Assembly: GCA_018241725.1 (NCBI GenBank)
Contig: JAFEDI010000110.1
Coordinates: 1-64,000, forward strand
Source: Pseudomonadota bacterium
GTDB taxonomy: Bacteria > Pseudomonadota > Gammaproteobacteria > Burkholderiales > Rhodocyclaceae
DNA length: 64,000 bases
Direction of reading: 5' to 3'
The notes under the pieces are model-generated. The model saw only the letters and a program-made list of their open reading frames with translations, was not told the origin of the DNA and ran no database searches. This document shows, in pieces, positions 17,541-55,857 of the stretch. Within the stretch, counting starts at the first letter, position 1. Each line of letters opens with the position of its first letter. A program made the position numbers and the translations under genes.

Positions 17541-18455
17541 TCAGAACCCGTAGCTGATCAAGCCCACCAGCTTGCTGACCTGGTTCACTCCGAAGCGGTT
17601 GTCGCCGCCGATGATGCCTTGCAGCGTCCACGTCAGGCCGGTGCTGCCGATGGGTTGGGACAGGCCGAGGACGAGGTGGCGGAAGCCGTCGCTGATCGGC
17701 CCCTTGCCGGCGAAGCAGCCGTTGACCACGAAGGCGGTGCCCGGCGCGCAGGACGCACCGCTGGCGGCATCACCGGTGCCCAGGTACTTGCCCTCCCGCG
17801 CGTAGGTGTACCAGCCGAGGCTGGCCGTGAAAGTAAGTTCGGCCGGCAGCGGGCGAGTGTAGTTGAGCGTCCAGTAGGTGTCGCCGCGGTTGCCCCACAC
17901 GGTGTCGTTGAGCAGGGTCTGCGCGTTCAGCGCGTATTCCTGCCAGGCCAGGCCGAGCTTGGTCTCGGTGGCGTTGGCGTGGCGGCCGTTGAGGTAGTAG
18001 TAGGCGGTCAGACCCAGAGTGTAGGAGACGTCACCGAGCTTGCCGGTGTAGCCGCCGTAGAGATCGTTCTCCACCGACTTGCCGTCCTGGAAGTCGCTGA
18101 CCGCCACGTTGCCGGTGGCCGCGTATTGGTCGTAGGAGCGGCCCAGCTGCTTGTACGAGTAGTTGATCGCCGACGCCCAGTAACCCAGGTAGAAGCCGCT
18201 TTCGTGGGTGAAATCGACGCCCCACTGGGGTGTGAAGCGGTCCGACTCGGGGGCGTCCGCCCCCTGGTTGCCGAGGCCGGGCTTGGCGTTGCCGTAGGTC
18301 GTCGTCGCGCCGCGCAGGTAGTAGCGGCTGGCGAGATCGACATGCCCAGTGAGGGTGTAGGGCGGCGCGGCTTCATCGGCCGCAAGGACGGGACTGGCGG
18401 AACTGGCGAGGAGGGACAGGGCGCACAGGGACCCTGCGATGGCTTTATCAAGCAT
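17541..18455 (-). CDS. TorF-family putative porin (guanidine-region copy)
   Basis: A protein of 304 residues. A signal peptide covers residues 1-25 (LLASSASPVLA) and is followed by a barrel that opens YTLTGHVDLASRYYLRGATTTYG and closes with LVGLISYGF. The opening strand with its SRYYLRG box and the evenly spaced aromatic strands match the TorF/Gcw_chp putative porins. A GTG at 18458 is an alternative start one codon earlier. The gene is divergent from the guanidine operon. It has its own sigma-54 promoter at 18505-18520 and shares the intervening NtrC-like boxes. Inference: it is an outer-membrane channel induced under nitrogen limitation, possibly for guanidinium. Confidence 0.82.
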   Translation of the reverse strand: MLDKAIAGSLCALSLLASSASPVLAADEAAPPYTLTGHVDLASRYYLRGATTTYGNAKPGLGNQGADAPESDRFTPQWGVDFTHESGFYLGYWASAINYSYKQLGRSYDQYAATGNVAVSDFQDGKSVENDLYGGYTGKLGDVSYTLGLTAYYYLNGRHANATETKLGLAWQEYALNAQTLLNDTVWGNRGDTYWTLNYTRPLPAELTFTASLGWYTYAREGKYLGTGDAASGASCAPGTAFVVNGCFAGKGPISDGFRHLVLGLSQPIGSTGLTWTLQGIIGGDNRFGVNQVSKLVGLISYGF

Positions 18456-18504
18456 CACGAGAGAAGACTCCGATTAAGGTTCCGGATATGCGCGCCGTCC
18501 TCCT

Positions 18505-18520
18505 AGCAAAAAGCGGGCCA
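18505..18520 (-). promoter_or_regulatory. Sigma-54 promoter of the TorF porin gene
   Basis: On the minus strand this reads TGGCCCG-CTTT-TTGCT, one base away from the TGGCACG-N4-TTGCW consensus, with GG and GC at the correct 10-base spacing. Transcription would start near 18494, giving a leader of about 40 bases before the porin start codon. NtrC-like boxes lie 90-140 bp upstream, a normal enhancer distance. Confidence 0.7.
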
Positions 18521-18611
18521 GCCGGCGCGGGGCAGCAGCGGGCCGACTTTTGCATATACATGGCAGGCACCTCCGCCACGCCCCATTCGGGCGCAGCCCA
18601 CCCTCGAACGA

Positions 18612-18659
18612 TGCACCCGCGGCGTGCCTGCCCATTCCGGGCGGCACCACGGCGGTGCA
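18612..18659. promoter_or_regulatory. Tandem NtrC-like enhancer boxes
   Basis: 18643-18659 reads GGCACC-ACGGC-GGTGCA, 11 of 12 matches to the NtrC consensus TGCACC-N5-GGTGCA. 18612-18628 reads TGCACC-CGCGG-CGTGCC, 10 of 12. The two start 31 bp apart, about three helical turns, the geometry of classical NtrC enhancers. They sit between two divergent sigma-54 promoters (18505-18520 and 18771-18786) and could serve both. The assignment is by consensus and by context of nitrogen genes. Confidence 0.65.
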
Positions 18660-18770
18660 TTCACCCCGCCTGCATGGCGTGCCCGCCGCCCCGGTGGCCA
18701 CCTGCGGCCCACCCGGCGAAAGCCTGGCACGCCAGTATCCACAAGGCTTTCACAGGATCGTCACGATAAC

Positions 18771-18786
18771 TGGCACCGCTATTGCT
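18771..18786 (+). promoter_or_regulatory. Sigma-54 promoter of the guanidine operon
   Basis: TGGCACC-GCTA-TTGCT agrees with the consensus TGGCACG-N4-TTGCW at every strongly conserved base and is preceded by the preferred C. Transcription would begin near 18797, about 45 bp before the riboswitch, so the whole aptamer and terminator lie within the leader RNA. Confidence 0.8.
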
Positions 18787-18839
18787 AAACGATGGGCGAG
18801 AGGGAGCGAATCGCGCTGTATCGCGTTCGCTTCATCGAA

Positions 18840-18971
18840 GGGTGGCTAGGGTTCCGGTCCCGTTTCGGATATGCGCACATATCGGGGGACGTCTGGTCCG
18901 AGAGCTGCCGGCTACGATAAGCCGAGCAGGCATGTCGTGGCTCCACGGAGGGATAAAAGCCCGGGAGGAAC
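18840..18971 (+). ncRNA. Guanidine-I (ykkC class) riboswitch
   Basis: The conserved blocks of the class appear in order: GGCTAGGGTTCCG at about 18844-18856, CTGGTCCGAGAG at about 18893-18904, and ACGGAGGGATAAAAGCCCGG at about 18945-18964 followed by GAGGA. Variable hairpins separate them. It lies in the 5' leader of the ABC importer, carboxyguanidine deiminase, carboxylase and allophanate hydrolase genes, the known context of this class. Guanidinium binding should stabilise the aptamer, prevent the overlapping terminator and allow read-through. Confidence 0.93.
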
Positions 18972-19002
18972 GCTTTGGATGAAGCGCCCTCTCGCCCTTT
19001 TT
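18962..19002 (+). terminator. Riboswitch-controlled intrinsic terminator
   Basis: CGGGAGG (18962-18968) pairs with CCTCTCG (18988-18994, one G-U), and CGCTT (18971-18975) pairs with AAGCG (18982-18986). CCC and five T follow at 18995-19002. The 5' arm uses the last conserved bases of the guanidine aptamer, so aptamer and terminator exclude each other. The importer start codon follows at 19025. Confidence 0.85.
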
Positions 19003-19024
19003 GTCCCAACGACAGGAGCCCTTC

Positions 19025-20077
19025 ATGTACCAGACCGACACCCGCCGCGTTCGTCCGACCGTCCTCCGCGACACGCGCGCCACCACCACCTCATCCCTCC
19101 TCAAGCGCCTCAAAACCACCCTCGCCGTTCTCGGCCTGGGCACTGCGCTGCTCGCAGCACCCGCGCCGGCCCTCGCCGAGGTCAAGGTCGGCGTGTCCGA
19201 CTGGCCGGGCTGGGTGGCCTGGTACGTGGCCGAGCAGAAGGGCTTCTTCAAGAAATACAAAGCCGACGTGAAGCTGGTGTGGTTCGCCAACTACACCGAC
19301 TCCATCTCTGCGCTGTCCTCCGGCCAGCTCGACGCCAACTGCCAGACCTGGTCCGACACCATGGGCCCGCTGGCCAAGGGCGTGCCGGTGAAGGCGGTGC
19401 TGGTCAATGACAACTCGGCCGGCAACGACGCACTGATGGTCAGCGACAAGATCAAGGGCTTCGCCGACCTGAAGGGCAAGCGCATCGCCCTCGAAGAGTT
19501 CAGCATCTCCCACTTCGTGCTCGCCACCGCGCTGGCCAAAAACGGCCTCACGCAGAAGGACGTGAAGGTGGTGAACCTGTCCGCCGGCGACGCTGCGGCG
19601 GCCTTCCTGGCCGGCCGCGTGGACGCCGCCGTGGTGTGGAACCCGTGGGTCGCGCAGATCGAGAAGAGCGGCAAGGGCAAGCCGTTGTTCACGTCGAAGG
19701 ACATGCCGGGCCTGATCCCCGACCTGCTGGTGGCCCAGGACAAGGCCATCAAGACCAAGCACAAGGACTTGGTCGGCATGATCCGGGCCTGGTTCGACAC
19801 CGAGAAGTTCATCCGCGACAACCCGGACGAGGCGGCCAAGATCATGGCCAAGGTAGTCGGCATGAAGCCCGAGGACTACAAGGTCTTCCTGCCCGGCACG
19901 CGCTTCTTCGACGCAGCAGCCAACCAGGCCGCGCTGACGCCGGCTGACGCCAAATCCCTGCAGGCTGTCGCCCCGACCATCTCGGCCTTCCTGCTCGACA
20001 AGAAGTTGATCGACGGCAAGCCCGACGCCGCCAAGGGCATCGACGCCAGCCTGCTCGCCGAAGCCCTCGGCAAGTGA
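19025..20077 (+). CDS. ABC importer substrate-binding protein (probable guanidine importer)
   Basis: A protein of 350 residues; the ATG at 19025 has an AGGAG site. It has an unusually long N-region before the signal core (LAVLGLGTALLAAPAPALA, ending near residue 51). The mature protein is of the nitrate/sulfonate/taurine-type (NMT1/SsuA-like) family: EVKVGVSDWPGWVAWYVAEQKGFF at its start, in two parts, then SGQLDANCQTWSDTMGPLAKGVPVKAV and GDAAAAFLAGRVDAAVVWNPWV. It is first in the riboswitch-controlled operon, so the ligand is most likely guanidinium or a guanidine compound. Homologues are often labelled urea or nitrate transporters. Confidence 0.88.
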   Translation: MYQTDTRRVRPTVLRDTRATTTSSLLKRLKTTLAVLGLGTALLAAPAPALAEVKVGVSDWPGWVAWYVAEQKGFFKKYKADVKLVWFANYTDSISALSSGQLDANCQTWSDTMGPLAKGVPVKAVLVNDNSAGNDALMVSDKIKGFADLKGKRIALEEFSISHFVLATALAKNGLTQKDVKVVNLSAGDAAAAFLAGRVDAAVVWNPWVAQIEKSGKGKPLFTSKDMPGLIPDLLVAQDKAIKTKHKDLVGMIRAWFDTEKFIRDNPDEAAKIMAKVVGMKPEDYKVFLPGTRFFDAAANQAALTPADAKSLQAVAPTISAFLLDKKLIDGKPDAAKGIDASLLAEALGK

Positions 20078-20084
20078 GGCGGCC

Positions 20085-20909
20085 ATGAGCGCAAGCAAGC
20101 GAGCCGGCGGGGGCGGCAGCTCCCTGTGGCAGATCCGCTCCGCCATCGACCCGCGCCAGTACTGGCTGCTGGCCCTGTTCGGGCTGGTCGCGCCGCTCGT
20201 CGCGTGGCTGGTGGCGAGCCAGCTGGACGGCACCGACAAGGTCTTCCTGCCCGGCCCGGCCGACGTGCTGGCCCGCATCTGGAGCTGGGCCACGGACGAC
20301 GACCTGGCCGCCGACGTGGCGATCAGCACCTGGCGCGTGGTGGCCGGCTGGGCTTTATCCGCCGCCATCGCGCTGCCGCTGGGCCTCTTCATCGGCAGCT
20401 ACCGGGCCGTGCAGGCGCTGCTGGAGCCCCTCACCGACTTCGTCCGCTACATGCCGGCGGTGGCCTTCATCCCGCTGGTCATGCTGTGGGTCGGCATCGA
20501 GGAAGGCTCCAAGGTGGCGATCATCTTCATCGGCACCTTCTTCCAGATGGTGCTGATGGTCGCCGAGGACGTGCGCCGGGTGCCGCTGGCGCAGATCGAG
20601 GCGGCCCAGACGATGGGCGCCACGCGCAGCGAGATCCTCGAGAAGGTCATCGTCCCGTCGGCCAAGCCAGCCCTGCTCGACACCCTGCGGGTAACCATGG
20701 GCTGGGCATGGACCTACCTGGTGGTGGCCGAGCTGGTGGCCTCCAACTCCGGCCTCGGCTATGCGGTGCTCAAGGCTCAGCGCTTCCTGCAGACCGACAA
20801 GATCTTCGCCGGCATCCTGTTGATCGGCCTGATCGGCCTCCTCATCGACCAGGGCTTCCGCCTGGTCCATCGCAAGGCCTTCCCCTACCTCGCCGGGAGA
20901 CACCGATGA
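20085..20909 (+). CDS. ABC importer permease (probable guanidine importer)
   Basis: A protein of 274 residues with six membrane helices typical of SsuC/TauC-type permeases (BPD_transp_1). The coupling loop carries the EAA motif (IEAAQTMGATRSEILEKVIVP), which docks on the ATPase. It starts 7 bp after the binding-protein stop, and its own stop overlaps the ATPase start as ATGA, so the three are translationally linked. It acts in the inner membrane as a homodimer with two copies of the ATPase. Confidence 0.9.
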   Translation: MSASKRAGGGGSSLWQIRSAIDPRQYWLLALFGLVAPLVAWLVASQLDGTDKVFLPGPADVLARIWSWATDDDLAADVAISTWRVVAGWALSAAIALPLGLFIGSYRAVQALLEPLTDFVRYMPAVAFIPLVMLWVGIEEGSKVAIIFIGTFFQMVLMVAEDVRRVPLAQIEAAQTMGATRSEILEKVIVPSAKPALLDTLRVTMGWAWTYLVVAELVASNSGLGYAVLKAQRFLQTDKIFAGILLIGLIGLLIDQGFRLVHRKAFPYLAGRHR

Positions 20910-21763
20910 CCGCCAGCATCGACATCCGCGACGCCTTCAAGACCTTCGGCCACGGCACCCAGGCCATCCAGGCGCTGGAGCAGGCCAACCTGGCCATCCG
21001 CCCCAACGAGTTCGTCACCTTCGTCGGCGCCTCGGGCTGCGGCAAATCCACGCTGCTGCGCATGATCGGCGGGCTGGAAAGCCTCAGCCGCGGCAGCATC
21101 GCGGTGAACGGCCAGCCCATCGCCGGCCCCGGTGTGGACCGGGCCATGGTGTTCCAGCACTACAGCCTCTACCCGTGGCTGACGGTGACCCAGAACATCA
21201 AGTTCTGCCGCCAGCTCAAGGCCCACACCCACGATCGGACCTCGGCCGACGTGGAGCAGGCCGCCGGCCGCGCCGACGCGCTGATCCGCCTGATGGGCCT
21301 CAGCCATGTCGCCGATGCCTACCCGAGCCAGCTGTCGGGCGGCATGCAGCAGCGCGTGGCGATTGCCCGCGCGCTGATGAGCCGGCCACCGATCCTGCTG
21401 ATGGACGAGCCCTTCGGCGCGCTGGACGCCCAGACCCGCGAGGTGATGCACGACCTCATCCGCCACGTGCACCGCATGGAAGGCAGCACCATCGTGTTCG
21501 TCACCCATGACGTGGAAGAGGCCATCTACCTGGGCCAGCGCATCGTGCTGATGGCGCCCCGCCCCGGCCGCATCGACACCCTCTACGACGTGCCCCTGCC
21601 CGCCGAGCGGCACCAGGACATGAAGCTCGCCCCCGAGTTTCTCGCCTTGAAGCGCGAGATCCTGGAACGCATCCGCGAGACCTCCGGCATGAAAACCGAC
21701 CTCGAGCAGCTCGCCCGCCTCAACGCCGCCGTCGGCGCCGACGCTGCCCTCACCACGGACTGA
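20906..21763 (+). CDS. ABC importer ATPase (probable guanidine importer)
   Basis: A protein of 285 residues. The Walker A is GASGCGKST, the Q-loop lies in AMVFQHYSLYPWLTV, the signature is LSGGMQQRVAIARAL, the Walker B is ILLMDEPFGALD and the switch histidine is in IVFVTHDVEEA. This is the SsuB/NrtD subfamily. The start overlaps the permease stop. It energises uptake of the substrate consumed by the downstream enzymes. Confidence 0.92.
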   Translation: MTASIDIRDAFKTFGHGTQAIQALEQANLAIRPNEFVTFVGASGCGKSTLLRMIGGLESLSRGSIAVNGQPIAGPGVDRAMVFQHYSLYPWLTVTQNIKFCRQLKAHTHDRTSADVEQAAGRADALIRLMGLSHVADAYPSQLSGGMQQRVAIARALMSRPPILLMDEPFGALDAQTREVMHDLIRHVHRMEGSTIVFVTHDVEEAIYLGQRIVLMAPRPGRIDTLYDVPLPAERHQDMKLAPEFLALKREILERIRETSGMKTDLEQLARLNAAVGADAALTTD

Positions 21764-21767
21764 ACCC

Positions 21768-22556
21768 ATGAACGCCCTGCTCACCCCCACCGACGCCGTC
21801 GACGTGGACACCCGCTGGCAACAGCTCGCCGCCGACCTGCCGGAAGACAAGATTCTGTTCTCCGACGTGGTCCCCGGCGGCTGCCACTGGTCGTGGGTCC
21901 TGCCCCGCGGCACCACCCTGCGCCTGGTCGCCCAGGCCGCCGGCGCCAACCTGTCGATGGTGCTCTACAACGCCCGCCAGCCGCTCGAGCGCTACAACAT
22001 GCCCGACTCCCTCAAGGCCCAGCACACCGCCCACTACGGCCGCGGCCACGTACTGATGAGCGACATGGGCTGCGCGATGGCCTCCATCACCGCCGACAGC
22101 CTCGGCTGGCACGACCCCCTCGGCCTGCTGCTCGACGCCCCGCGCATGCACGACAAATACGGCCAGCACCCCTACCAGCAGTACCGCAACGGCATGTACC
22201 GCGCCGGCCGCGACGGCCTGCTGATCGAGATCGGCAAGTACGGCCTGGGCCGCCGCGACCTGGTGGCGCCGGTGAACTTCTTCAGCAAGGTCAGCGTGGA
22301 CGAGGAAGGCCGCTTCCACTTCCAGCCCGGCCACGCGCCGGCCGGCGCGATGGTGGAAGTACGCCTCGACATGGACGTGATCGTCGCCGTGTCCGCCGCG
22401 CCGCACCCCCTCGACCCGCGCCCGGACTACGCGCCGGCGCCGGTGGGCATCGTCGCCTGGCGCTCCGGCCCGGCGGCGGCGGACGACTACTGCCGCCAGT
22501 TCCGCCCGGAAGGCGCCCGCGCGCTGCACAACACCGATCTGCACTACCTGGCCTGA
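21768..22556 (+). CDS. cgdA: Carboxyguanidine deiminase subunit (urea-amidolyase-associated protein 1)
   Basis: A protein of 262 residues of the DUF1989 family, starting 4 bp after the ATPase stop. Recognisable features are GGCHWSWVLPRGTTLRLVAQ, NLSMVLYNARQPLERYNMPD, HVLMSDMGCAMASI and NFFSKVSVDEEGRF. Proteins once called UAAP1 and UAAP2 are known from biochemical work to form carboxyguanidine deiminase (CgdAB), which converts carboxyguanidine to allophanate and ammonia. The gene order carboxylase, CgdAB, allophanate hydrolase fits this exactly. Assignment of A versus B follows gene order and length. Confidence 0.88.
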   Translation: MNALLTPTDAVDVDTRWQQLAADLPEDKILFSDVVPGGCHWSWVLPRGTTLRLVAQAAGANLSMVLYNARQPLERYNMPDSLKAQHTAHYGRGHVLMSDMGCAMASITADSLGWHDPLGLLLDAPRMHDKYGQHPYQQYRNGMYRAGRDGLLIEIGKYGLGRRDLVAPVNFFSKVSVDEEGRFHFQPGHAPAGAMVEVRLDMDVIVAVSAAPHPLDPRPDYAPAPVGIVAWRSGPAAADDYCRQFRPEGARALHNTDLHYLA

Positions 22557-22566
22557 GGAGACCGCC

Positions 22567-23220
22567 ATGACCGCCACCGCCATCCGCCTCCGGGAAAGCG
22601 AACTCGACCCGGCCCGGGCCGTCACCGACGTGGTGCTGCCCGCCGGCGAACCCTGGCTGCACGAGGTGAAGCAGGGCCAGACCCTGCGCATCGTCGACCT
22701 CGCCGGCAACCAGGCCGCCGACGTGATCTTCTACAACCGCCACGACACCGACGAGCACTACAGCGCCACCCAGACCCTGCTGCAACAGGGCGGCATCTAC
22801 CTCACCACCGGCTCGGTGCTGATGAGCAACGAAGGCCGCCCGATGCTCACTATCGTCGCCGACACCTGCGGCCGCCACGACACGCTGGGCGGTGCCTGCG
22901 CCGCCGAGAGCAACACCGTGCGCTACGCGCTGCACAAGAAGTACATGCACAGCTGCCGGGACAACTACCTTCTGGCCATCCAGCACTCCGACTCCGGCCT
23001 GACCAAGGCCGACCTGGTGCCCAACGTCAATTTCTTCATGAACGTGCCGGTCACCGCCGACGGCGGCCTCAAGTTCGACGACGGCGTGTCCGGCCCCGGC
23101 AAGTACGTCGAACTGCGCGCCGAAATGGACCTGTGGGTGCTGGTCTCCAACTGCCCGCAGCTCAACAACCCCTGCAACGCCTACAACCCCACGCCGGTGC
23201 AGTTCCTGATCTGGGAATGA
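22567..23220 (+). CDS. cgdB: Carboxyguanidine deiminase subunit (urea-amidolyase-associated protein 2)
   Basis: A protein of 217 residues, also DUF1989, with GAGGAG upstream. It is a paralogue of the preceding gene: GQTLRIVDLAGNQAADVIFYN, YLTTGSVLMSNEGRPMLTIVAD, CGRHDTLGGACAAESN, NFFMNVPVTADGG and the C-terminal NNPCNAYNPTPVQFLIW. The cysteine/histidine-rich segment CGRHDTLGGAC is a likely metal or active-site region. It should form a heteromer with the preceding subunit. A 200-bp gap with strong hairpins separates it from the carboxylase. Confidence 0.88.
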   Translation: MTATAIRLRESELDPARAVTDVVLPAGEPWLHEVKQGQTLRIVDLAGNQAADVIFYNRHDTDEHYSATQTLLQQGGIYLTTGSVLMSNEGRPMLTIVADTCGRHDTLGGACAAESNTVRYALHKKYMHSCRDNYLLAIQHSDSGLTKADLVPNVNFFMNVPVTADGGLKFDDGVSGPGKYVELRAEMDLWVLVSNCPQLNNPCNAYNPTPVQFLIWE

Positions 23221-23421
23221 CGGCCCCCGAGGGCCGGGCCTGGCCCGGCCCACCCCCCAAGGGGGGCGCAAGAAAACTTGGGGCGACCCGGCGTTTTCTT
23301 GCGGCCGACCAAGGCCAGGCTGTATCGACTATCAACCGGCACTCGCCGGCCCCCGGGACGACCCGGGCGGACAGGATGACCGGGCGGGACGACCCGCCCC
23401 CTCGCTCCGAGAGCCTCCACC
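23221..23421 (+). repeat. Intra-operon hairpin cluster
   Basis: This gap inside the guanidine operon contains no gene. It holds a GGGCCGGGCC/GGCCCGGCCC run, CCCCCC-AA-GGGGGG (about 23253-23266), and a strong stem of CGCAAGAAAAC (23267-23277) with GTTTTCTTGCG (23293-23303). These could stall RNA polymerase or protect mRNA ends, lowering carboxylase expression relative to the importer. They look like a dispersed extragenic element rather than a gene remnant. Confidence 0.6.
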
Positions 23422-26400
23422 ATGTTCAGCAAAGTCCTCATCGCCAACCGGGGCGCCATCGCCTGCCGGGTGATCCGCACGCTCAAGAAGCTCGGCATCG
23501 CCTCGGTGGCCGTGCATTCCGAAGCCGACGCCAACTCCCTGCACGTCAGCCTCGCCGACGAGGCGGTGTGCATCGGCCCGGCCCCCGCCGCCGACAGCTA
23601 CCTCAAGGCCGACACCATCCTCGCCGCGGCCCGCGCCAGCGGCGCCCAGGCCATCCACCCGGGCTACGGCTTCCTGTCCGAGAACCCGGACTTCGCCGAC
23701 GCCTGCGAGGCCGCCGGCATCGCCTTCATCGGCCCGACCCGCGCCCAGATGCTGGCCTTCGGCCTCAAGCACACCGCCCGCGAGCTGGCCGAGCAGGCCG
23801 GCGTGCCGCTGCTGCCGGGCAGCGGCCTGCTGTCCGGCGTCGACGAGGCGCACCGCGAGGCCGCCCGCATCGGCTACCCGGTGATGCTCAAGAGCACCGC
23901 CGGCGGCGGTGGCATCGGCATGCGCCTGATCGGCGGCGAGGCCGAGCTGGACGAGGCCTACGCGTCGGTGGACCGCCTGGCCCGCGCAAACTTCAAGGAG
24001 GCCGGCATCTACCTGGAGAAGTACGTCACCGCCGCCCGCCACATCGAGGTTCAGGTCTTCGGCGACGGCCGCGGCCGCGTGCTGGCCCTGGGCGAGCGGG
24101 ACTGCTCGGTGCAGCGCCGCAACCAGAAGGTCATCGAGGAAACCCCGGCGCCGGGCCTGTCCGCCGCCCAGCGCGCCGGGCTGGCCGCCACCGCGGTGCG
24201 CCTGATGGAGTCCGTCGCCTATCGCTCCGCCGGCACCGTGGAGTTCGTGATGGACGCCGACAGCGGCGAGTTCTACTTCCTGGAGGTGAACACCCGCCTG
24301 CAAGTGGAACACGGCGTCACCGAGGAAGTCACCGGCATCGACCTGGTGGAATGGATGGTGCTGCTCGCCTCCGGCGACCTGACCCTGCCCGCCACCGCGC
24401 CACAGCCGCGGGGCGCGTCCATCCAGGTGCGCCTCTACGCCGAAGACCCGGCCAAGAACTTCCAGCCATCCTCCGGCCTGCTCACCGAGGTGCGTTTTCC
24501 GCCCGGCGTGCGCGTCGAAACCGCCGTCGCCACCGGCTCGGAAGTGCCGCCCTATTACGACCCGATGGTCGCCAAGATCATCGTCCATGCGGACAGCCGC
24601 GAAGCCGCCACCGACAAGCTGATCGCCGCGCTGGACGCCACCCGCGTGTACGGCATCGAGACCAACCGCGCCTACCTGCGCCAGATCCTCGACGGCGAGG
24701 TGTTCCGCGCCGGCCGCCAGACCACCCGCTACCTGAATACCTTCGACTACCGCCCGGCCACCTGCGACGTACTGGAGCCCGGCGTGCAGACCTCAGTGCA
24801 GGACTGGCCCGGCCGCGTCGGCTACTGGGACGTGGGCGTGCCGCCATCCGGCCCGATGGACGACCTGGCCCTGCGCGCCGCCAACCGCCTGGTCGGCAAC
24901 CCGGAAGGCGCCGCCGGCCTGGAATGCACGATGAGCGGCCCGACCCTGCGCTTCAACTGCGACACTGTGATCGCCCTCACCGGCGCGCCCACCGCCGCCA
25001 CGCTGGACGGCGCACCGCTGGCCTGGTGGCAGGCCCACGCGGTGAAGGCCGGTTCCACGCTGAAGGTCGGCGCCGTCATCGACGCCGGTTGCCGCAGCTA
25101 CCTGGCGATCGCCGGCGGCGTCGACGTGCCCGACTACCTGGGCAGCAAATCCACCTTCACCCTCGGCCAGTTCGGCGGCCACGCCGGGCGCTGCCTGCGC
25201 CTCGGCGACGTGCTGGCGATCCAGCCCACCACCGCCCTGCCCGCCCCCGTCGCGCTGCAGCCGCCCGCCTATGGCCATCACTGGGAAGTGGCGGTGCTCT
25301 ACGGCCCCCACGGCGCGCCGGACTTCTTCACCGATCCGGACATCGCTGGCTTCTTCGCCACCGACTGGGAGATCCACTACAACTCCAGCCGCACCGGCGT
25401 GCGCCTGATCGGGCCCAAGCCCCAGTGGGCGCGGACCGACGGCGGCGAGGCCGGCCTGCACCCGTCCAACATCCACGACAACGCCTACGCCATCGGCGCC
25501 ATCGACTTCACCGGCGACATGCCGGTGATCCTCGGCCCGGACGGCCCCAGCCTGGGCGGCTTCGTATGCCCGGCGGTGGTGATCCAGGCCGACTTGTGGA
25601 AGCTCGGCCAACTGCGCCCCGGCGACACCCTGCGCTTCGTGCCGGTCAGCGCCGCTACCGCGGCACGGCGCCTGGCCGCTGCCGACGCAGCCCTGGCCCA
25701 TGCCGACGGGCCCCTCGCGCTGCCGGTGATCGCCGAGCCGGACACCGTCACCACGCCGATGCTGGCCGAGCTGCCGGCCGCCGGCGAGCACCCCCACGTG
25801 GTCTATCGCCAGGCCGGCGACGCCTACCTGCTGATCGAATACGGCCCGCTGGTGCTCGACCTGGAGCTGCGCTTCCGCGTGCATGCGCTGATGGACTGGC
25901 TGAAGGCCCATCCCCAGCCCGGCATCGTCGACCTGACCCCCGGCATCCGCTCCCTGCAAGTCCATTTCGACGCCCGCCGCACCGACCGCGCCGCGCTGCT
26001 CGCCGCACTGCAGGCCGCCGAAGACGCGCTGCCCGCCATCGACGACATGGCAGTGCCGAGCCGCACGGTGTATCTGCCGCTGTCGTGGGACGACCCGGCC
26101 ACCAAGCTGGCCATCGACAAGTACATGCAGTCGGTGCGGAAGGACGCCCCCTGGTGCCCGTCCAACATCGAGTTCATCCGCCGCATCAACGGTCTGGATT
26201 CCATCGACGAGGTGTACCGCACCGTCTTCGACGCCAGCTACCTGGTGCTGGGCCTCGGCGACGTGTACCTCGGCGCGCCGGTGGCCACGCCGATGGACCC
26301 GCGCCACCGCCTCGTCACCACCAAGTACAACCCGGCGCGCACCTGGACGCCGGAGAACGCGGTCGGCATCGGCGGCGCCTACATGTGCGTGTATGGCATG

Positions 26401-27027
26401 GAAGGCCCCGGCGGCTACCAGTTCGTCGGCCGCACGGTGCAGATGTGGAACCGCTGGAACCACGGCGCCCGCGGCACCGAGCAGTTCGACAAGCCCTGGC
26501 TGCTGCGCTTCTTCGACCAGGTGCGCTTCGTGCCGGTGGGCGAGGAGGAGCTGCTGCAGCTACGCAAGGACTTCGCCGCCGGCCGCGCCCGCCTGCGCAT
26601 CGAGGACGGGGTATTCCGCCTGGCCGACTACCGGCGCTTCCTGGCCGACAACGCCGCCCCCATCGGCGCCTTCAAGGCCCGCCAGCAGGCCGCCTTCGAG
26701 GCCGAGCGGGAACGCTGGAAGGCCGCCGGCCAGGCCGAGTACATCAGCGAGGCCGACATCGCCGCGGCGGCCGCCGACTCCGAACTGGACCTGCCGGAAG
26801 GCGCCCAGCTGGTGGCCAGCTACGTGCCCGGCAACATCTGGAAGCTGCTCGTCGAGGCCGGCCAGCACGTGAGGGCCGGCGACCCGCTGGCGGTCGTCGA
26901 ATCCATGAAGATGGAATTCACCGTGACCGCCCCCGCCGACGGCGAAGTGCTCCAGCTGCTGTGCCGCGAAGCCAGCCCCGTCGCCGCCGGCCAGGATCTG
27001 CTGATCCTGCGCACCGCCACCCACTGA
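23422..27027 (+). CDS. Guanidine carboxylase (urea carboxylase family)
   Basis: A protein of 1201 residues, full length. Residues 1-450 are biotin carboxylase ([60 protein letters not shown]). About 450-1080 is the carboxyltransferase made of KipA/KipI-like parts ([62 protein letters not shown]). The biotin carrier domain ends the protein, with K1163 in VESMKMEF. It uses ATP and bicarbonate to carboxylate its nitrogenous substrate. The riboswitch and the flanking deiminase genes point to guanidine rather than urea. Allophanate hydrolase is encoded separately. Confidence 0.93.
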
Positions 27028-27043
27028 TTGCGGAGAGATGACC

Positions 27044-28840
27044 ATGCTGCCCACCAGCCTCGACCTCACCACCCTGGCCGCCGCCTACCGCGCCGGCCTC
27101 AAGCCCAGCGCCCTGTTCGCCCACCTCCACGCCCGGGCCGCCGCCGACACCCACCACGCCTGGATCAGCCTCATGCCGGAGGCCGAACTGCTGGCCCGCG
27201 CCCGCGCACTGGACGCCCAGGACCCGGCCAGCCTGCCGCTGTACGGCGTGCCCTTCGCAGTGAAGGACAACATCGACCTGGCCGGCCTGCCGACCACCGC
27301 CGGCTGCCCGGACTTCGCCTACGCGCCGCAAACCGACGCGGCGGTGGTGGCGCGCCTGATCGCCGCCGGCGCGATCCCCCTCGGCAAGACCAACCTGGAC
27401 CAGTTCGCCACCGGCCTCAACGGCACCCGCAGCCCTTACGGCGCCTGCCGCAACGCCTTCCAGCCGGACCACATCTCCGGCGGCTCCAGCTCCGGCTCGG
27501 CGGTCGCCGTGGCGGCCGGCCAGGTGAGCTTTGCGCTGGGCACCGACACCGCCGGCTCCGGCCGCGTGCCGGCCGCCTTCAACAACCTGGTCGGCCTCAA
27601 ACCGAGCTGCGGCCTGCTGTCGTCCACCGGCGTCGTGCCGGCCTGCCGCAGCCTCGACACCGTCTCGATCTTCGCCCTCACCGCCGCCGACACCGCCACG
27701 CTGTTCGGCGTCGCCCGCGGCTTTGATGAAACCGACGCCTACAGCCGCCCGGCGGAGGCCCACGGCCGGCGCTTCCCGGCCGGCCAGCCCTTCCGCTTCG
27801 GCGTGCCGCGCCCGGACCAGCTGGCCTTCTTCGGCGACGCCCACAACGCCGGCCTGTTCGCCGCTGCAGCAGCCCGCCTGCAAGGCCTCGGCGGCACGCC
27901 GGTGGAGCTGGATTTCGAGCCCTTCCTGGAAACCGCCCGCCTGCTCTACGGTGGCCCATGGGTCGCCGAACGCTACCACGCGATCAAGGACTTTATCGAG
28001 CGTCAGCCGGAATCCCTTTTCCCGGTGACGCGGGCGATCACCCTCAGCGGCGCCACGCCCAGCGCCGTGGACGCCTTCGACGCCCAGTACCGGCTGCGCG
28101 CCCTCAAGCGCCGCTGCGACGCCGCCTGGCAAGAGGTGGACCTGATCCTCACCCCCACCGCCGGCTACCACCCGACCATCGCCGCCGTCGAAAGCGAGCC
28201 GATCCGCATCAACACGGAGCTGGGCCATTACACCAACTTCATGAACCTGCTGGACTACGCCGCGGTCGCCGTGCCCGCCGCCTTCCGGCCCGACGGCCTG
28301 CCCTTCGGCGTGACCCTCTTCGCCCCCGCCCACCAGGATCTGCCGCTGCTCGAACTGGCCGCCCGCTGGCAGGCCGACACCGGCCTGCCCCTCGGCGCCA
28401 CCGGCCAGCCGCTGCCGGACCAGGCCTTCCCCGCCGTGCCCGGCGCCGACGGCATGGTGCAGGTCGCCGTCTGCGGCGCCCATTTGTCCGGCCTGCCCCT
28501 CAACGGCCAGCTCACCCAACGCGGCGGCCGCCTGCTGCGCAGCGTGCGCTCCGCGCCGGAATACCGCTTCTACGCGCTGGCCGGCAGCCCGCCCCAGCGC
28601 CCCGGCATGGTCCGCGTCGCCGAAGGCGGCGCCAGCATCGAAATGGAAATCTGGGAACTCCCCGCCCATCACTTCGGCAGCTTCGTCGCCGCCATCCCCG
28701 CCCCGCTGGGCATCGGCAAGGTAAAACTGGAAGACGGCAGCCAGGTCTGCGGCTTCATCTGCGAAAGCGGCGGACTGACGGGAGCGGAGGACATCACCGG
28801 GTACGGCGGGTGGAGGGCGTGGTTGGGGCTCAGGCCTTAA
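27044..28840 (+). CDS. atzF: Allophanate hydrolase
   Basis: A protein of 598 residues (600 if the ATG at 27038 is used; the one at 27044 is better spaced from GGAG). The N-terminal 430 residues are an amidase-signature domain with the catalytic lysine in FAVKDNIDLAG and the Ser-cis-Ser pair in SGGSSSGSAVAVAAG. The C-terminal 160 residues are the small domain typical of AtzF/DUR1 enzymes. It splits allophanate into ammonia and CO2, the last step of guanidine assimilation. Its stop codon overlaps that of the convergent TyrR-like gene, so there is no space for a terminator between them. Confidence 0.93.
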   Translation: MLPTSLDLTTLAAAYRAGLKPSALFAHLHARAAADTHHAWISLMPEAELLARARALDAQDPASLPLYGVPFAVKDNIDLAGLPTTAGCPDFAYAPQTDAAVVARLIAAGAIPLGKTNLDQFATGLNGTRSPYGACRNAFQPDHISGGSSSGSAVAVAAGQVSFALGTDTAGSGRVPAAFNNLVGLKPSCGLLSSTGVVPACRSLDTVSIFALTAADTATLFGVARGFDETDAYSRPAEAHGRRFPAGQPFRFGVPRPDQLAFFGDAHNAGLFAAAAARLQGLGGTPVELDFEPFLETARLLYGGPWVAERYHAIKDFIERQPESLFPVTRAITLSGATPSAVDAFDAQYRLRALKRRCDAAWQEVDLILTPTAGYHPTIAAVESEPIRINTELGHYTNFMNLLDYAAVAVPAAFRPDGLPFGVTLFAPAHQDLPLLELAARWQADTGLPLGATGQPLPDQAFPAVPGADGMVQVAVCGAHLSGLPLNGQLTQRGGRLLRSVRSAPEYRFYALAGSPPQRPGMVRVAEGGASIEMEIWELPAHHFGSFVAAIPAPLGIGKVKLEDGSQVCGFICESGGLTGAEDITGYGGWRAWLGLRP

Positions 28841-30366
28841 TCGATGCCATAGCGCCTCAGCCGGTTGGCGATGGCGGAGTGGGAGGTGCCAAGGCGCTTG
28901 GCCAGGCGGCGGCTCGATGGAAACTCGCGGTACAGGCGCTGCAGCAGGCTCTTCTCGAAATCGGCAACGGCCTGTTCCAGAGTCGCAACCTCTCGCTCAT
29001 CGCCGGCCGGCTCAGGCGCGGCGACCTGGGCAAGCTCCAGGTCTTCCACGTTGATGATGTTGCGCTCCGTCATCGTCACCGCCCGGAAGATCACGTTCTG
29101 CAACTGGCGTACATTGCCCACCCACGGGTTGGCCAGCATGGCGGCGCATGCGCCCTGGGACAGGCGCATGGGTGGGCGCGACGCCTGGGTGCAGGCGCGG
29201 CCGAGGAAGGCGTGGGCGATCGGCAGGATGTCGCCGGGGCGCTCGCGCAGCGGCGGAACGTGCAGGTGGAGCACGTTCAGGCGGAACAGCAGATCCTGGC
29301 GGAAATGGCCGCTGCTCACCATGTCTTCGAGCTTGCGATGGGTGGCGCTGATGATGCGTACGTTCATCCTCACCTCCCGCTCGCCGCCGACCCGCCTGAA
29401 GCTGCCGTCATTGAGGAAACGCAGCAGCTTGGCCTGCAGATACGGTGACATCTCGCCGATTTCGTCGAGGAACACCGTGCCGCCGTGCGCCAGTTCGAGC
29501 AGGCCGGGCTTGCCGCCGCGCAGGGCGCCGGTGAAGGCGCCCGCGGCGTAACCGAAGAGTTCGCTTTCGGCCAGGCTTTCCGGCAAGGCCGCACAGTTGA
29601 GGGCGAAGAAGGGCTGGCCACTGCGGCTGCTGCCGGCGTGGCAGGCGTGAGCCAGCAGCTCCTTACCGGTACCGGTTTCGCCGGTGATCAGCAGCGGCGC
29701 ATCCACCGTGGCCATGCGGGCGGCACGCTGCTTGAGCTGCTCCATGGCGGGTGAGCTGCCGAGGACGGCTTCGAAACCGCCGGCATCGTAGTTCTGCAAG
29801 GCGCTCATGCGCTCGCCCATGCGGCTCGGGGCGTGCAAGGTCATCACCGCACCGGCGACGCGGCCGCCGGCTTCATGCAGCGGCATCGTTTCCAGCAAGT
29901 AGGGCTCGCCGTTCATGACGACCTCGCACACCGGCAGGTGGTAGCCCCCGTTGACCAGCTCGCGCAGCAGTTCGGGGTTGCCGATCAGTTCCTGCATGGA
30001 GGTGCCGATCAGGCGTGCCTCGTCCAGGCTGCAGGCGCCGATTGCCGCGCCGTTGGCGACCACGATGCAACCTGCTTCATCGACTGCGAAGATCGGGTCG
30101 GGCTGGGAGGCAAGCAGGGCGTCGAGGTAGAGGCGCCGTTGGGCGCCCGGCAGCATCTGCACGGGCTCCACGCTGCGCACCCCTGCAACCCCCATCAACT
30201 GGGCGCGCAACTCGTCGAGGCTGGCCTGATCGACGGCCGGGGCCTCAATGAAGATATGCGGCGGGTCCACCTCCACCGCCGTCACGTTGAAGCTGCGCCG
30301 GGCCAGCTCTGCCAGCACTTCCTGGGCGATCCCGACCCGATCGGAAAAGAACACATCGATGCGCAT
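28837..30366 (-). CDS. TyrR/PhhR-like sigma-54-dependent activator
   Basis: A protein of 509 residues. It has an N-terminal ACT-like domain (about 1-72), a PAS domain (about 78-180) and an AAA+ domain with Walker A GETGTGKE (229-236), an intact GAFTGA loop (276-281) and Walker B GTVFLDEIGEM. A TyrR-type helix-turn-helix forms the end (SSRRLAKRLGTSHSAIANRLRRYG, in two parts). The E. coli TyrR protein lacks a working GAFTGA loop, whereas this one should activate sigma-54 polymerase. It is divergent from dadA, whose upstream region has a matching sigma-54 promoter, so it probably senses an amino acid and turns on D-alanine catabolism. Confidence 0.9.
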   Translation of the reverse strand: MRIDVFFSDRVGIAQEVLAELARRSFNVTAVEVDPPHIFIEAPAVDQASLDELRAQLMGVAGVRSVEPVQMLPGAQRRLYLDALLASQPDPIFAVDEAGCIVVANGAAIGACSLDEARLIGTSMQELIGNPELLRELVNGGYHLPVCEVVMNGEPYLLETMPLHEAGGRVAGAVMTLHAPSRMGERMSALQNYDAGGFEAVLGSSPAMEQLKQRAARMATVDAPLLITGETGTGKELLAHACHAGSSRSGQPFFALNCAALPESLAESELFGYAAGAFTGALRGGKPGLLELAHGGTVFLDEIGEMSPYLQAKLLRFLNDGSFRRVGGEREVRMNVRIISATHRKLEDMVSSGHFRQDLLFRLNVLHLHVPPLRERPGDILPIAHAFLGRACTQASRPPMRLSQGACAAMLANPWVGNVRQLQNVIFRAVTMTERNIINVEDLELAQVAAPEPAGDEREVATLEQAVADFEKSLLQRLYREFPSSRRLAKRLGTSHSAIANRLRRYGID

Positions 30367-30555: not shown

Positions 30556-30571
30556 TGGCACGGGAATCGCT
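30556..30571 (+). promoter_or_regulatory. Sigma-54 promoter of dadA
   Basis: TGGCACG-GGAA-TCGCT has a perfect -24 element and a -12 element with the essential GC at the correct spacing; only one T of TTGC is replaced. It lies about 50 bp upstream of the dadA start. The divergently encoded activator has the GAFTGA loop needed to use such a promoter. Confidence 0.72.
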
Positions 30572-53331: not shown

Positions 53332-53721
53332 GGAAACCTCCGGCCGGGGAATGATGGATGAACGGAAGGATGGTGCCACGGACCGCCGGCTTCCGGCCCA
53401 CGCCGCAGGACGCCCGTTGGCCGTGACATTTTCCGGCCTGCCGGACCACCTGTCCGGCCGGGAAACGCCCGGCGACACCTGGCACCATTGCGGTGCAAAT
53501 ACTCCTTTGTGGGTATCAAATTATGGATGTCAGCCAGAAACCGCACACATATGGTGCATATGTGTGAATTTCCGTGACGCCAGCAGGGAAAATATATTGC
53601 ATAACGTAAAGTCCTAAGCACCTGATTCACCAAGGCGGTGCAGGCCGCTACGACGCTTTAGGGCAAAACAGGCGCAGCTCTTGCTAACGATCCTGCTTAG
53701 TTTTGTAGCAGGAATCCGTCA
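53332..53721. other. Divergent regulatory region with a perfect palindrome
   Basis: No gene is present in this 390-bp gap between the DUF3617 and chemotaxis receptor genes. The central third is AT-richer than its surroundings and contains the palindrome CACACATAT-GGTGC-ATATGTGTG (53544-53566). Promoters for both flanking genes should lie here; I do not see a convincing sigma-54 or sigma-28 promoter. Confidence 0.5.
53544..53566. promoter_or_regulatory. Perfect palindrome, probable operator
   Basis: CACACATAT-GGTGC-ATATGTGTG is a perfect 9-5-9 inverted repeat, about 210 bp upstream of the DUF3617 start and about 155 bp upstream of the chemotaxis receptor. The size and symmetry are those of a dimeric regulator site. 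I cannot name the regulator. Confidence 0.55.
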
Positions 53722-55857
53722 ATGCTCAAGAGTCAGAACATGTCCCTCAGCGGCGCAGAGAAAGCCTGGCTGCCGTGGTTCGGCCGGACCGGCAAGATCG
53801 CCATGGGCTGGGCCACGTCCCGCAACCGGCATCGCTACCCCGCCATCGAACAGACCTTCGAGGCCTTCGCGCAGACCCGCGTCCGTATCCTGAGCACCTG
53901 GGCCGACCAGCAGTGGGCCCACCTGGAAGGGCTGGCCCGCGAACTGGCCGGCAGCTGGCCGGACGTGGATGCCCGCCTGCTGCAACAGCGCCGCGAGCGC
54001 GCCGAGGACTTTTCCGAACTGTTCGTCGTCAACCAGCAGGGCATGATCATCGGCTCCACTGCCAAAGGCCGCGCCGGCTCCCGCGTGGCCGCCACCGCGC
54101 CGCTGCGCGCGGGGCTGGCCGGGCGCTTCCTGCACGGCCCCTACCGCGACCCAGTCACCCAGAGCCTGCCGCAGTCCACGTCCCGCTTCCACGACGCGGT
54201 GACGCTGATGTTCTACCAGCCGATCAGCGTGGATGGCAGCATCGTCGGCGCCCTGTGTGGCCGCGTGCCCAACGACGTACTTGGCGACCTGATCCAGCGC
54301 GAGGCCGGCCACATCTTCCACGAGTCCGGCGACAACTACCTGTTCATGGTCAAGTCGGTCTTCGACCCGCAGATCGCCCCCGGCACGGCCCTGTCCCGCT
54401 CGCGCTTCGAGGACGCCACCTTCACCGGCGGCGACAACCTGAAGGACGGCGTGCGCACGACCTTCGGCACCGTGCGCGTGCAGGAGCATACCGAACTCGA
54501 ACTGGTCTTCAACGATCCGGCCACCGGCCAGCTCCACCCCGGCGTACGCGAGACGATCCGCAAGGGCGACAACCTCTTCGTCACCTACCCGGGCTATTCC
54601 GACTACCGCCACGTGCCGGTCATCGGCAAGGGCGTCACCTTCCGCCTGCCCGGCTCGCCGGACACCTGGGGGATGATGTGCGAGGCCGACCTGGAAGAGG
54701 TCTACCGCTATCGCAGCATCCCTTTCCGCCTGCTGCGCCTGTACATGGCGATCACCCTGGGCAGCTGGGGTGTCGCAGGGCTGCTCGCCGAGCTGGCCGG
54801 CCTCGGCCAGGCCGCCGTGCTCGGCACCGGGCTGGCGCTGCAACTGGTCGGCGCGGCGCTGTTCCACCAGCTGGGCTGCATGCCGGTCAGCCAGCGGCTG
54901 CGCGAGGCGACCCGCGTGCTGCGTTCCACCACCGAAGGCGGCGGCAATCTGTCCCAACGCCTGCCGCGGGCCAGCGAGCGCATCGACGAAGCCACCGTGC
55001 TGGCCCAGTGGGCCAACAGTTTCATCGACAACCTGGAACAGATGATCCGCCAGGTCGCCAAGACCACCAGCGAAATCGGCGATACCAACCGCAACATGCT
55101 GCAGAAGAACAGCCACGCGGACCAGGTGTCGACGAGCATGCAGGGCGCCATCGACGACATCCTCAACGCGATCCGCGTACAGCTCAGCGAGATCGACGCC
55201 GCCACCACCAACACCGCTACCATGCAACAAGTCGTACAGCGCGTCAGCGAAGAGGCGCGCGAGCAATTCGCGCTGGTCGAAGCCCGCAGTCAGGGCATCC
55301 GCAGCTCGGTCAACCTGTCGGCCACGACCATCCGCCAGCTCGAACAGCGCACGCTGGAGATCGGCCGCATCGTGACGCTGATCAACGAGATCGCCGACCA
55401 GACCAACCTGCTGGCCCTCAACGCGGCCATCGAAGCGGCCCGCGCCGGCGAGACCGGGCGCGGCTTCGCGGTGGTGGCCGACGAGGTGCGCAAACTGGCC
55501 GAACGCACCCGCGGCGCCACCGCCGACATCCGCGAGATGATCGACGGCGTGCAGAGCCAGGCCGAGGAAGCCGTACGCACGATGGAAAGCGGCATGTCGG
55601 AGATGGAGGAAGGCCTGCGCCTGGCCACGGCGGCGAGCACCGACAAGCGGGAGATCGAGGCGGTCGTCGAGCGCCTGTTCATCACCATCAACCAGATCGC
55701 CGCGGCGACCCATGCCTACGGCGACCGGGTGGAGTCCATCTCCTCCGCCGCCGAGGCGATGCGCCACGCCACGCGGGAATCGGCGCGAAGCGCCGAACTC
55801 ACCGGCTTTGCGACCGGCAAGCTGGAACAGACCATGGGCCAGTTCCAGGTCGCCTGA
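53722..55857 (+). CDS. Methyl-accepting chemotaxis protein
   Basis: A protein of 711 residues. The first 335 residues form a Cache-like sensor ([49 protein letters not shown]) with no membrane helix in front of it. Two helices follow at about 340-380 ([36 protein letters not shown]), then HAMP-like sequence and the signalling domain with its hairpin tip ([47 protein letters not shown], in parts). There is no CheR/CheB pentapeptide at the end. It directs flagellar movement through CheA/CheW. The sensor domain, lacking an N-terminal membrane anchor, should be cytoplasmic, which is unusual for a Cache-type module. Confidence 0.9.

Follow-up and report, generated by a model that had tools for sequence, protein, structure and literature searches.

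Initiation at nasF of Klebsiella oxytoca is nitrogen-regulated and uses sigma-54. The leader of the nasFEDCBA operon contains an intrinsic terminator with substrate-dependent readthrough (PMC7496416), a likeness to the guanidine operon described here; the sensor of nasF is the RNA-binding protein NasR, whereas here it would be the RNA itself. Two inputs also decide the fate of one leader in tandem riboswitch logic gates, in which PRPP aptamers are combined with guanine aptamers (PMC7266159; PMC5912903), but both inputs are RNA ligands there, whereas one of the two here is a promoter activator.

The guanidine carboxylase pathway and the guanidine-I riboswitch are themselves already known. In Vreelandella boliviensis, a guanidine-I riboswitch lies at the 5′ end of the operon and a guanidine-II riboswitch between cgdB and gca, the operon proteins are raised by guanidine, and guanidinium binding has been shown for this relative of the present guanidine-I element (PMC12508155). 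This locus resembles that operon in guanidine-I, guanidine-II, ABC transporter, cgdA/B, gca and allophanate hydrolase, and the arrangement of guanidine-I with an internal guanidine-II is therefore already described. That paper discusses riboswitch control, whereas NtrC does not occur in its main text. The physiological meaning of guanidine, and with it that of its many riboswitches, has been called an open question (PMC12186494). No report tying guanidine riboswitches to NtrC or sigma-54 was present among the literature matches listed (several listings giving only the best 15–20, in one case 20 of 980), subscription literature lying largely outside the search.

Nitrogen control of similar genes has been recorded in Burkholderia cenocepacia H111. 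RNA-seq of nitrogen-limited cells gave a change of −6.0 for the urea carboxylase gene BCAS0272 in an ntrC mutant, and the mutant had zero reads for both BCAS0269, a urea carboxylase-related ABC transporter, and BCAS0271, named as a urea carboxylase-related aminomethyltransferase (PMC5491218). The likeness of these NtrC-dependent genes to the present operon is by name; they are named for urea, and neither ‘guanidin’ nor ‘riboswitch’ occurs in that report. The effects of NtrC in B. cenocepacia could be indirect. In a strain of B. cenocepacia other than H111 (L244), the same gene set stands on two divergent guanidine-I leaders, one leading to the substrate-binding-protein gene and the other to the UAAP1-UAAP2-carboxylase genes, each with a sigma-54 site of 11/12 and NtrC dyads of just 9/12; guanidine-II was not found at that locus.

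The window, which is the whole stretch of 64,000 nt analysed, contains from 19025 a co-directional gene set for a substrate-binding protein, permease, ATPase, UAAP1, UAAP2, urea/guanidine carboxylase and allophanate hydrolase (Table 1). The carboxylase, UAAP1/2 and allophanate hydrolase of the guanidine carboxylase pathway occur together, with TIGR02712, TIGR03425, TIGR03424 and TIGR02713 all over cut-off. The named loci with the closest carboxylase protein are those of Zoogloea (91–92 % identity), and the bacterium is on this ground probably a Zoogloea. The riboswitches and the CgdA/B pair suggest that the pathway prefers guanidine to urea.

Table 1. Features of the guanidine operon and its surroundings (positions in the window)
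Feature	Position	Strand	Evidence or remark
TorF-family (Gcw_chp) porin gene, divergent	17541..18458	−	TIGR02001 and PF09694 over cut-off
Sigma-54 site facing porin gene	18505..18520	−	TGGCCCGCTTTTTGCT, 11/12
NtrC-like box 1	18612..18628	+	10/12
NtrC-like box 2	18643..18659	+	11/12; 31 bp from box 1
Sigma-54 promoter, −24/−12	18771..18786	+	TGGCACCGCTATTGCT; 11/12
Predicted transcript start and candidate antiterminator 5′ strand	18797..18804	+	Start 12 nt after GC of sigma-54 site
Candidate second antiterminator segment, GCTTCATC	18829..18836	+	Complementary to GATGAAGC at 18978–18985
Guanidine-I riboswitch aptamer	18835..18969	+	RF00442, 84 bits, cut-off 63
Terminator hairpin	18962..18994	+	−16.3 kcal/mol; T run 18998–19002
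Terminator 3′ arm and following CCC, alternative partner of transcript 5′ end	18987..18997	+	Complementarity, folding
ABC transporter substrate-binding protein (SsuA family; Uca-type by similarity)	19025..20077	+	TIGR01728 over cut-off; TIGR03427 second, below cut-off; scanned from 19001
ABC transporter permease	20085..20909	+	Profile scan
ABC transporter ATPase	20906..21763	+	Profile scan from 20909
UAAP1, pair member read as carboxyguanidine deiminase/hydrolase	21768..22556	+	TIGR03425, 336.9 bits
UAAP2, partner subunit of UAAP1	22567..23220	+	TIGR03424, 348.8 bits
Guanidine-II (mini-ykkC) riboswitch	23350..23397	+	RF01068, 41.8 bits, cut-off 32; 24 nt before carboxylase start
Urea/guanidine carboxylase	23422..27027	+	TIGR02712, 1887.9 bits
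Allophanate hydrolase	27038..28840	+	TIGR02713 and NF006043 over cut-off
TyrR/PhhR-like sigma-54 activator gene	28837..30366	−	PF00158, GAFTGA motif

An earlier note on this DNA had read the region before the operon as a sigma-54 promoter with tandem NtrC-like boxes, followed by a guanidine-I aptamer and an intrinsic terminator. These elements were recovered, the boxes at the spacing claimed and the terminator where it had been placed. The aptamer is above the gathering score and is the sole RF00442 match found in the genome. The 5′ arm of the terminator shares bases with the conserved 3′ end of the aptamer, and its hairpin is followed by CCC and then TTTTT. A standard terminator scan of the window did not list it, presumably because the CCC precedes the T run, and the terminator was therefore judged by folding. 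Three elements are additional to the earlier note: the sigma-54 site facing the porin gene, the guanidine-II riboswitch, and a complementarity between the 5′ end of the predicted transcript and the terminator. The guanidine-II element has two ACGA-loop hairpins and scores above its gathering threshold; in a motif scan such an element was seen at the equivalent place in many of 80 named loci. Between UAAP2 and guanidine-II, at 23225–23330, there is an intergenic repeat, of which the genome has five further, partial copies (77–83 % identical).

The promoter candidate keeps GG-N10-GC intact when scored against the consensus TGGCACG-N4-TTGCW. A consensus of GGcacg-N4-ttGC is given in PMC5491218. 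No sigma-70-type site was found in 18300–19100, and RpoN is encoded in the genome (TIGR02395, 478.5 bits). Taken singly, the sigma-54 and NtrC motifs are near chance in the window: with up to one mismatch the sigma-54 pattern occurs four times in the 64 kb (2.6 expected), and with up to two mismatches the NtrC dyad occurs eight times (6.4 expected). They rise above chance because of their conjunction and conservation. The 5.93-Mb genome has 17 copies of TGGCAC-N5-TTGCT and none of the reversed control pattern. Only two of these 17 exact sites come with tandem NtrC dyads of at least 9/12 (at −159 and −128 relative to the −24 element): one precedes the guanidine operon, the other a gene belonging to the MSMEG_0572/Sll0783 nitrogen-starvation family. 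This second gene lies elsewhere in the genome (L168 921–1403, minus strand) and has the same sigma-54/tandem-NtrC geometry as the guanidine operon.

Conservation of the promoter and boxes in close relatives, the absence of which the earlier note had named as grounds for giving up its reading, was seen in Zoogloea. The sigma-54 site scores 10/12 in both Zoogloea loci (L047 and L048), with two NtrC dyads of 10/12, 31 bp apart, in the former and one dyad in the latter. For a broader comparison, guanidine-I elements were located with a covariance model built from 34 leaders, giving 59 matches in 80 named loci and 67 in 60 unnamed loci, and later 29 in 26 further loci and 36 in 34 further loci. Counts for the named and unnamed sets were kept separate, since the two share species. 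A leader was scored as having the promoter if a sigma-54 site of at least 9/12, with GG and GC required, lay at −130 to −20 from the aptamer. This was the case for 59 of 59 leaders of named loci with at least 150 bp upstream, the window included (one of 60, L112, was dropped, its aptamer starting at base 1), and for 54 of 66 leaders of unnamed loci (the window's own locus, L001, was dropped from the 67 matches), compared with 0–5.3 % by group in shuffles. One of the 59 named leaders with a site, in L056, sits away from the operon.

The misses in the unnamed set were all eight amino-acid-permease leaders (L003, L013, L015, L019, L023, L029, L030 and L153), two of 42 substrate-binding-protein leaders, one of two UAAP1 leaders and the single carboxylase leader. 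Leaders were assigned to these classes by clustering their first open frames and reading them manually, the permease label being checked with Pfam in four of the eight. Among leaders examined once the rule was fixed, 51 of 61 have the site (the shuffles covered the earlier sets only). The 61 are drawn from 65 later matches, of which L196 127–223 and L199 1–77, near locus ends, and two of L243, already counted as L012, were dropped; L198_68m, which is counted, has just 67 bp upstream. By source, the site is present in 19 of 20 further order-level leaders and in 32 of 41 phylum-level leaders. The latter comprise 25 of 26 leaders of the same class and only seven of 15 of other classes, which counts against the model set out below. 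Plasmid loci of Cupriavidus, Pantoea and Paraburkholderia also have guanidine-I leaders, with sigma-54 sites of 10–12/12 and internal guanidine-II; one Paraburkholderia plasmid-locus leader has no NtrC dyad of at least 9.

Together with the site in most leaders of the class, the strong enrichment of NtrC dyads (below), the presence of NtrC in the genome and the NtrC dependence of like-named genes in H111 (PMC5491218) support the reading of the earlier note, that the operon is under both NtrC/sigma-54 and a guanidine riboswitch. It is very likely that NtrC and sigma-54 start transcription and that guanidine lets it finish. In the full form of this model, the operon would import guanidine and break it down to ammonia. 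Under nitrogen shortage, phosphorylated NtrC on the tandem boxes would activate sigma-54 polymerase at the promoter, and from these boxes it probably acts on the divergent porin promoter (18520–18505) as well. When there is no guanidine, the leader would form the terminator hairpin and polymerase would stop at the T run. When guanidine is present, the aptamer would hold the 5′ arm of the hairpin, the freed 3′ arm would pair with the first nucleotides of the transcript, and polymerase would continue; guanidine-II probably gates translation of the carboxylase as well. What the sequences show is the presence of the elements, how far they are conserved and the locus-specific complementarity described below; the AND logic, the response to ligand, the order of events and the binding of NtrC in this organism are inferred.

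Sigma-54 polymerase is generally silent without its activator, and in the window the terminator is predicted to win in free RNA once the T run has been made (0.78–0.997 for RNA ends at 19000–19023). Both points argue against a looser arrangement, in which the promoter does answer to NtrC and sigma-54 but there is no strict AND-gate, either because the effects of nitrogen and guanidine simply add up or because the riboswitch leaks. The looser arrangement is rather unlikely, with something still in its favour: traces of three operon proteins were seen in Vreelandella on ammonium (PMC12508155), and the fold changes of H111 imply that the nitrogen-limited wild type did give reads, in a report in which ‘guanidin’ does not occur (PMC5491218).

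On the two-level model, the guanidine operon appears as a nasF-like system with an RNA sensor, a protein-free counterpart of nasF-type control, and the arrangement appears widespread in related bacteria. If genes for import and breakdown start only through the nitrogen-starvation activator, these operons would be a nitrogen supply; the recurring arrangement suggests that they serve feeding rather than detoxification. Export genes should, if this is true, be without a sigma-54/NtrC promoter. No small multidrug-resistance leaders, the intended efflux control, were recognised among the leaders sampled. Two leaders of EamA-like transporters by Pfam (L218 and L227, included in the 61) are without a sigma-54 site, but they are below the Rfam cut-off, so may not be guanidine-I, and make a poor negative control.

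The predicted transcript begins CGAGAGGG, and GGGCGAGAGGG (18794–18804) is the exact complement of 18987–18997. The terminator and this 5′-end pairing are mutually exclusive predicted folds in the window. If the pairing acts as the antiterminator, the sigma-54 start would itself lay down the antiterminator strand, a part that is omitted by an aptamer-only model such as the 107-position RF00442. The complementarity of the first transcript nucleotides to the terminator 3′ arm is new here; no report of it was found among the matches listed, with subscription literature again largely outside the search.

The complementarity was assessed across relatives by permutation and shuffle tests, the 5′ leaders differing in length. 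In 84 distinct leaders with a long 5′ part, pairing of each 5′ end with its own terminator region gives a mean duplex of −22.3 kcal/mol, compared with −17.8 (sd 0.34) for permuted partners, the best of 5000 permutations reaching −19.1 kcal/mol. By locus, 39 of the 84 own pairs are within the best 5 % of same-locus shuffles and 45 are outside. In 40 later leaders the values are −22.6 for own pairing and −17.95 (sd 0.52) for permuted pairing. The DNA just upstream of the −24 element, used as a control in the later leaders, gives −15.0 vs −14.3 (sd 0.43). A second intended control, the 26 nt immediately preceding the aptamer (12 loci), likewise shows some preference for its own terminator, though a weaker one (−15.8 vs −13.9, sd 0.76). 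With its locus-specific complementarity across relatives, the transcript 5′ end is probably the antiterminator.

Folding of the window RNA agrees with a switch in part. When the 3′ part of the aptamer is held unpaired, a lock that merely imitates ligand, the predicted fold for the same ends (19000–19023) changes from the terminator to the 5′-end pairing (0.87–0.97). In 126 leaders the lock lifts the mean number of pairs between 5′ end and terminator from 8.1 to 11.1; 51 leaders gain at least two pairs, six lose at least two, and 109 have at least five. If the RNA stops short of the T run, at 18995 or 18997, the 5′-end pairing dominates with or without the lock (0.96–0.98). Kinetics must therefore decide, and equilibrium folding at this stage does not show the terminator winning in time.

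This long-range helix might instead aid termination or protect the mRNA. In favour of this, the helix borders the T run with its 3′ strand, and at equilibrium it is predicted to form even in ligand-free RNA as long as the T run has yet to be transcribed. It competes, however, with the local hairpin, which in 88 of 126 leaders uses at least half of the helix's 3′ strand as its own 3′ side. Guanidine-I riboswitches activate gene expression. The ligand-bound fold should therefore not terminate, guanidine induction in Vreelandella being a case in point (PMC12508155), and a role other than antitermination is considered unlikely.

Leaders form two classes by the distance between predicted start and aptamer, up to 8 nt (35 leaders) and at least 21 nt (126 leaders), with none between; in the short class, the predicted start of some lies just within the aptamer. 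The classes do not differ in the median stability of the local fold that follows the aptamer (−21.6 short, −21.8 long), which counts against the antiterminator, and T-run length failed as a class marker, runs of at least four being present in 12 of the 35 short leaders and 54 of the 126 long ones. Short-class members from Acinetobacter have weak local folds (−7.9 to −16.0) and run straight into the start region. At Acinetobacter loci such as L113 and L122, the predicted sigma-54 start is 5–8 nt before the aptamer and there is no evident terminator; these short-leader loci are probably under translational control. Two short-class members from Acidithiobacillus have T runs of 7 and 9 after a hairpin that is self-contained by eye.

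On balance, it is somewhat more likely than not that most proteobacterial guanidine-assimilation operons have a guanidine-I riboswitch fused to an NtrC-activated sigma-54 promoter, the first ~8–20 nt of the transcript being the antiterminator strand. The position of the promoter would in that case evolve together with the RNA switch, giving two discrete forms, one starting at the aptamer (leader of up to 8 nt, in Acinetobacter without an evident terminator), the other at least 21 nt upstream with 5′-end pairing. The folding result before the T run counts against this proposal and lowers our confidence in it.

NtrC is the favoured activator. It is encoded in the genome (TIGR01818, 704.9 bits) next to ntrB and glnA, and glnA beside ntrBC provides an own-genome control, with boxes of 12/12 and 11/12, 30 bp apart, and a sigma-54 site of 10/12. 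The survey of NtrC dyads started from 111 leaders in which the upstream DNA was long enough; 105 distinct ones were left after removal of near-duplicates. Conserved dyads upstream of the −24 element are well above chance: 80 of the 105 leaders have one of at least 9/12 (shuffle null 12.7, max 17), 41 of at least 10/12 (null 1.9, max 7) and 10 of at least 11/12 (null 0.1), while the reversed motif at 9/12 or better is found in 11 (null 8.1). Dyad pairs of at least 8/12 at the window's own spacing of 31 bp, about three helical turns, are present in 28 of 105 leaders, against 0.47 expected; spacings of 18 bp (12 leaders), 30 bp (10), and 21 and 44 bp (8 each) are also above chance. A dyad of at least 9 is absent from 25 of the 105. 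Of the later leaders having a sigma-54 site, 18 of 32 in one set and 15 of 19 in the other do have such a dyad. We infer that the tandem boxes of the window bind NtrC in this organism.

The eight permease leaders without a sigma-54 site are from family f16. Loss of rpoN as the cause is ruled out, as rpoN is present in 10 of 10 genomes of the family, including the eight that supply these leaders. No protein over the NtrC cut-off was found in the ten f16 genomes, vs five of five comparison genomes with one, and a carboxylase-gene leader of the family (G063) is likewise without a sigma-54 site. The sigma-54 check covers the eight permease leaders and the NtrC check ten genomes, the leaders of G146 and G274 being left out. 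The site-less leaders and absent NtrC support NtrC control, as a case of one family, mostly with another target gene and possibly a single event.

A different sigma-54 activator was considered, such as the TyrR/PhhR-like protein, which has the sigma-54 activation domain and whose gene adjoins the operon, ending against it. TyrR boxes of at least 9 are found in eight of 105 leaders (null 9.7) and are unenriched, unlike the NtrC dyads. The gene is also divergent to dadA, whose own sigma-54 site is the nearer likely target. This candidate was rejected, such an activator being very improbable. The dadA (D-amino acid dehydrogenase) site is at 30556–30571 (11/12), and an amino acid permease and alanine racemase follow.

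The NtrC boxes probably act both ways, with the porin also co-controlled. The sigma-54 site facing the porin is ~50 bp before the porin gene, with the NtrC boxes ~92 bp further on. Among porin homologues with at least 400 nt upstream, seven of 10 loci, the window included, have a sigma-54 site of at least 10 and an NtrC dyad of at least 9. This site is new here and may serve the porin through the operon's boxes; the porin, being without a riboswitch, should answer nitrogen alone. That the boxes serve only the porin, which does have its own sigma-54 site within their reach, with the guanidine operon relying on the riboswitch, is barely credible, as many loci have both boxes and sigma-54 site ahead of their guanidine-I leaders while the porin query matched just 14 of 126, two being the window itself (many loci are ~3 kb long, limiting this count).

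Elsewhere in the window, three NtrC-like boxes lie at 53481–53642, in the intergenic region before a gene at 53722 whose product resembles, by eye, a methyl-accepting chemotaxis protein; it is possible that a chemoreceptor is also under nitrogen control here.
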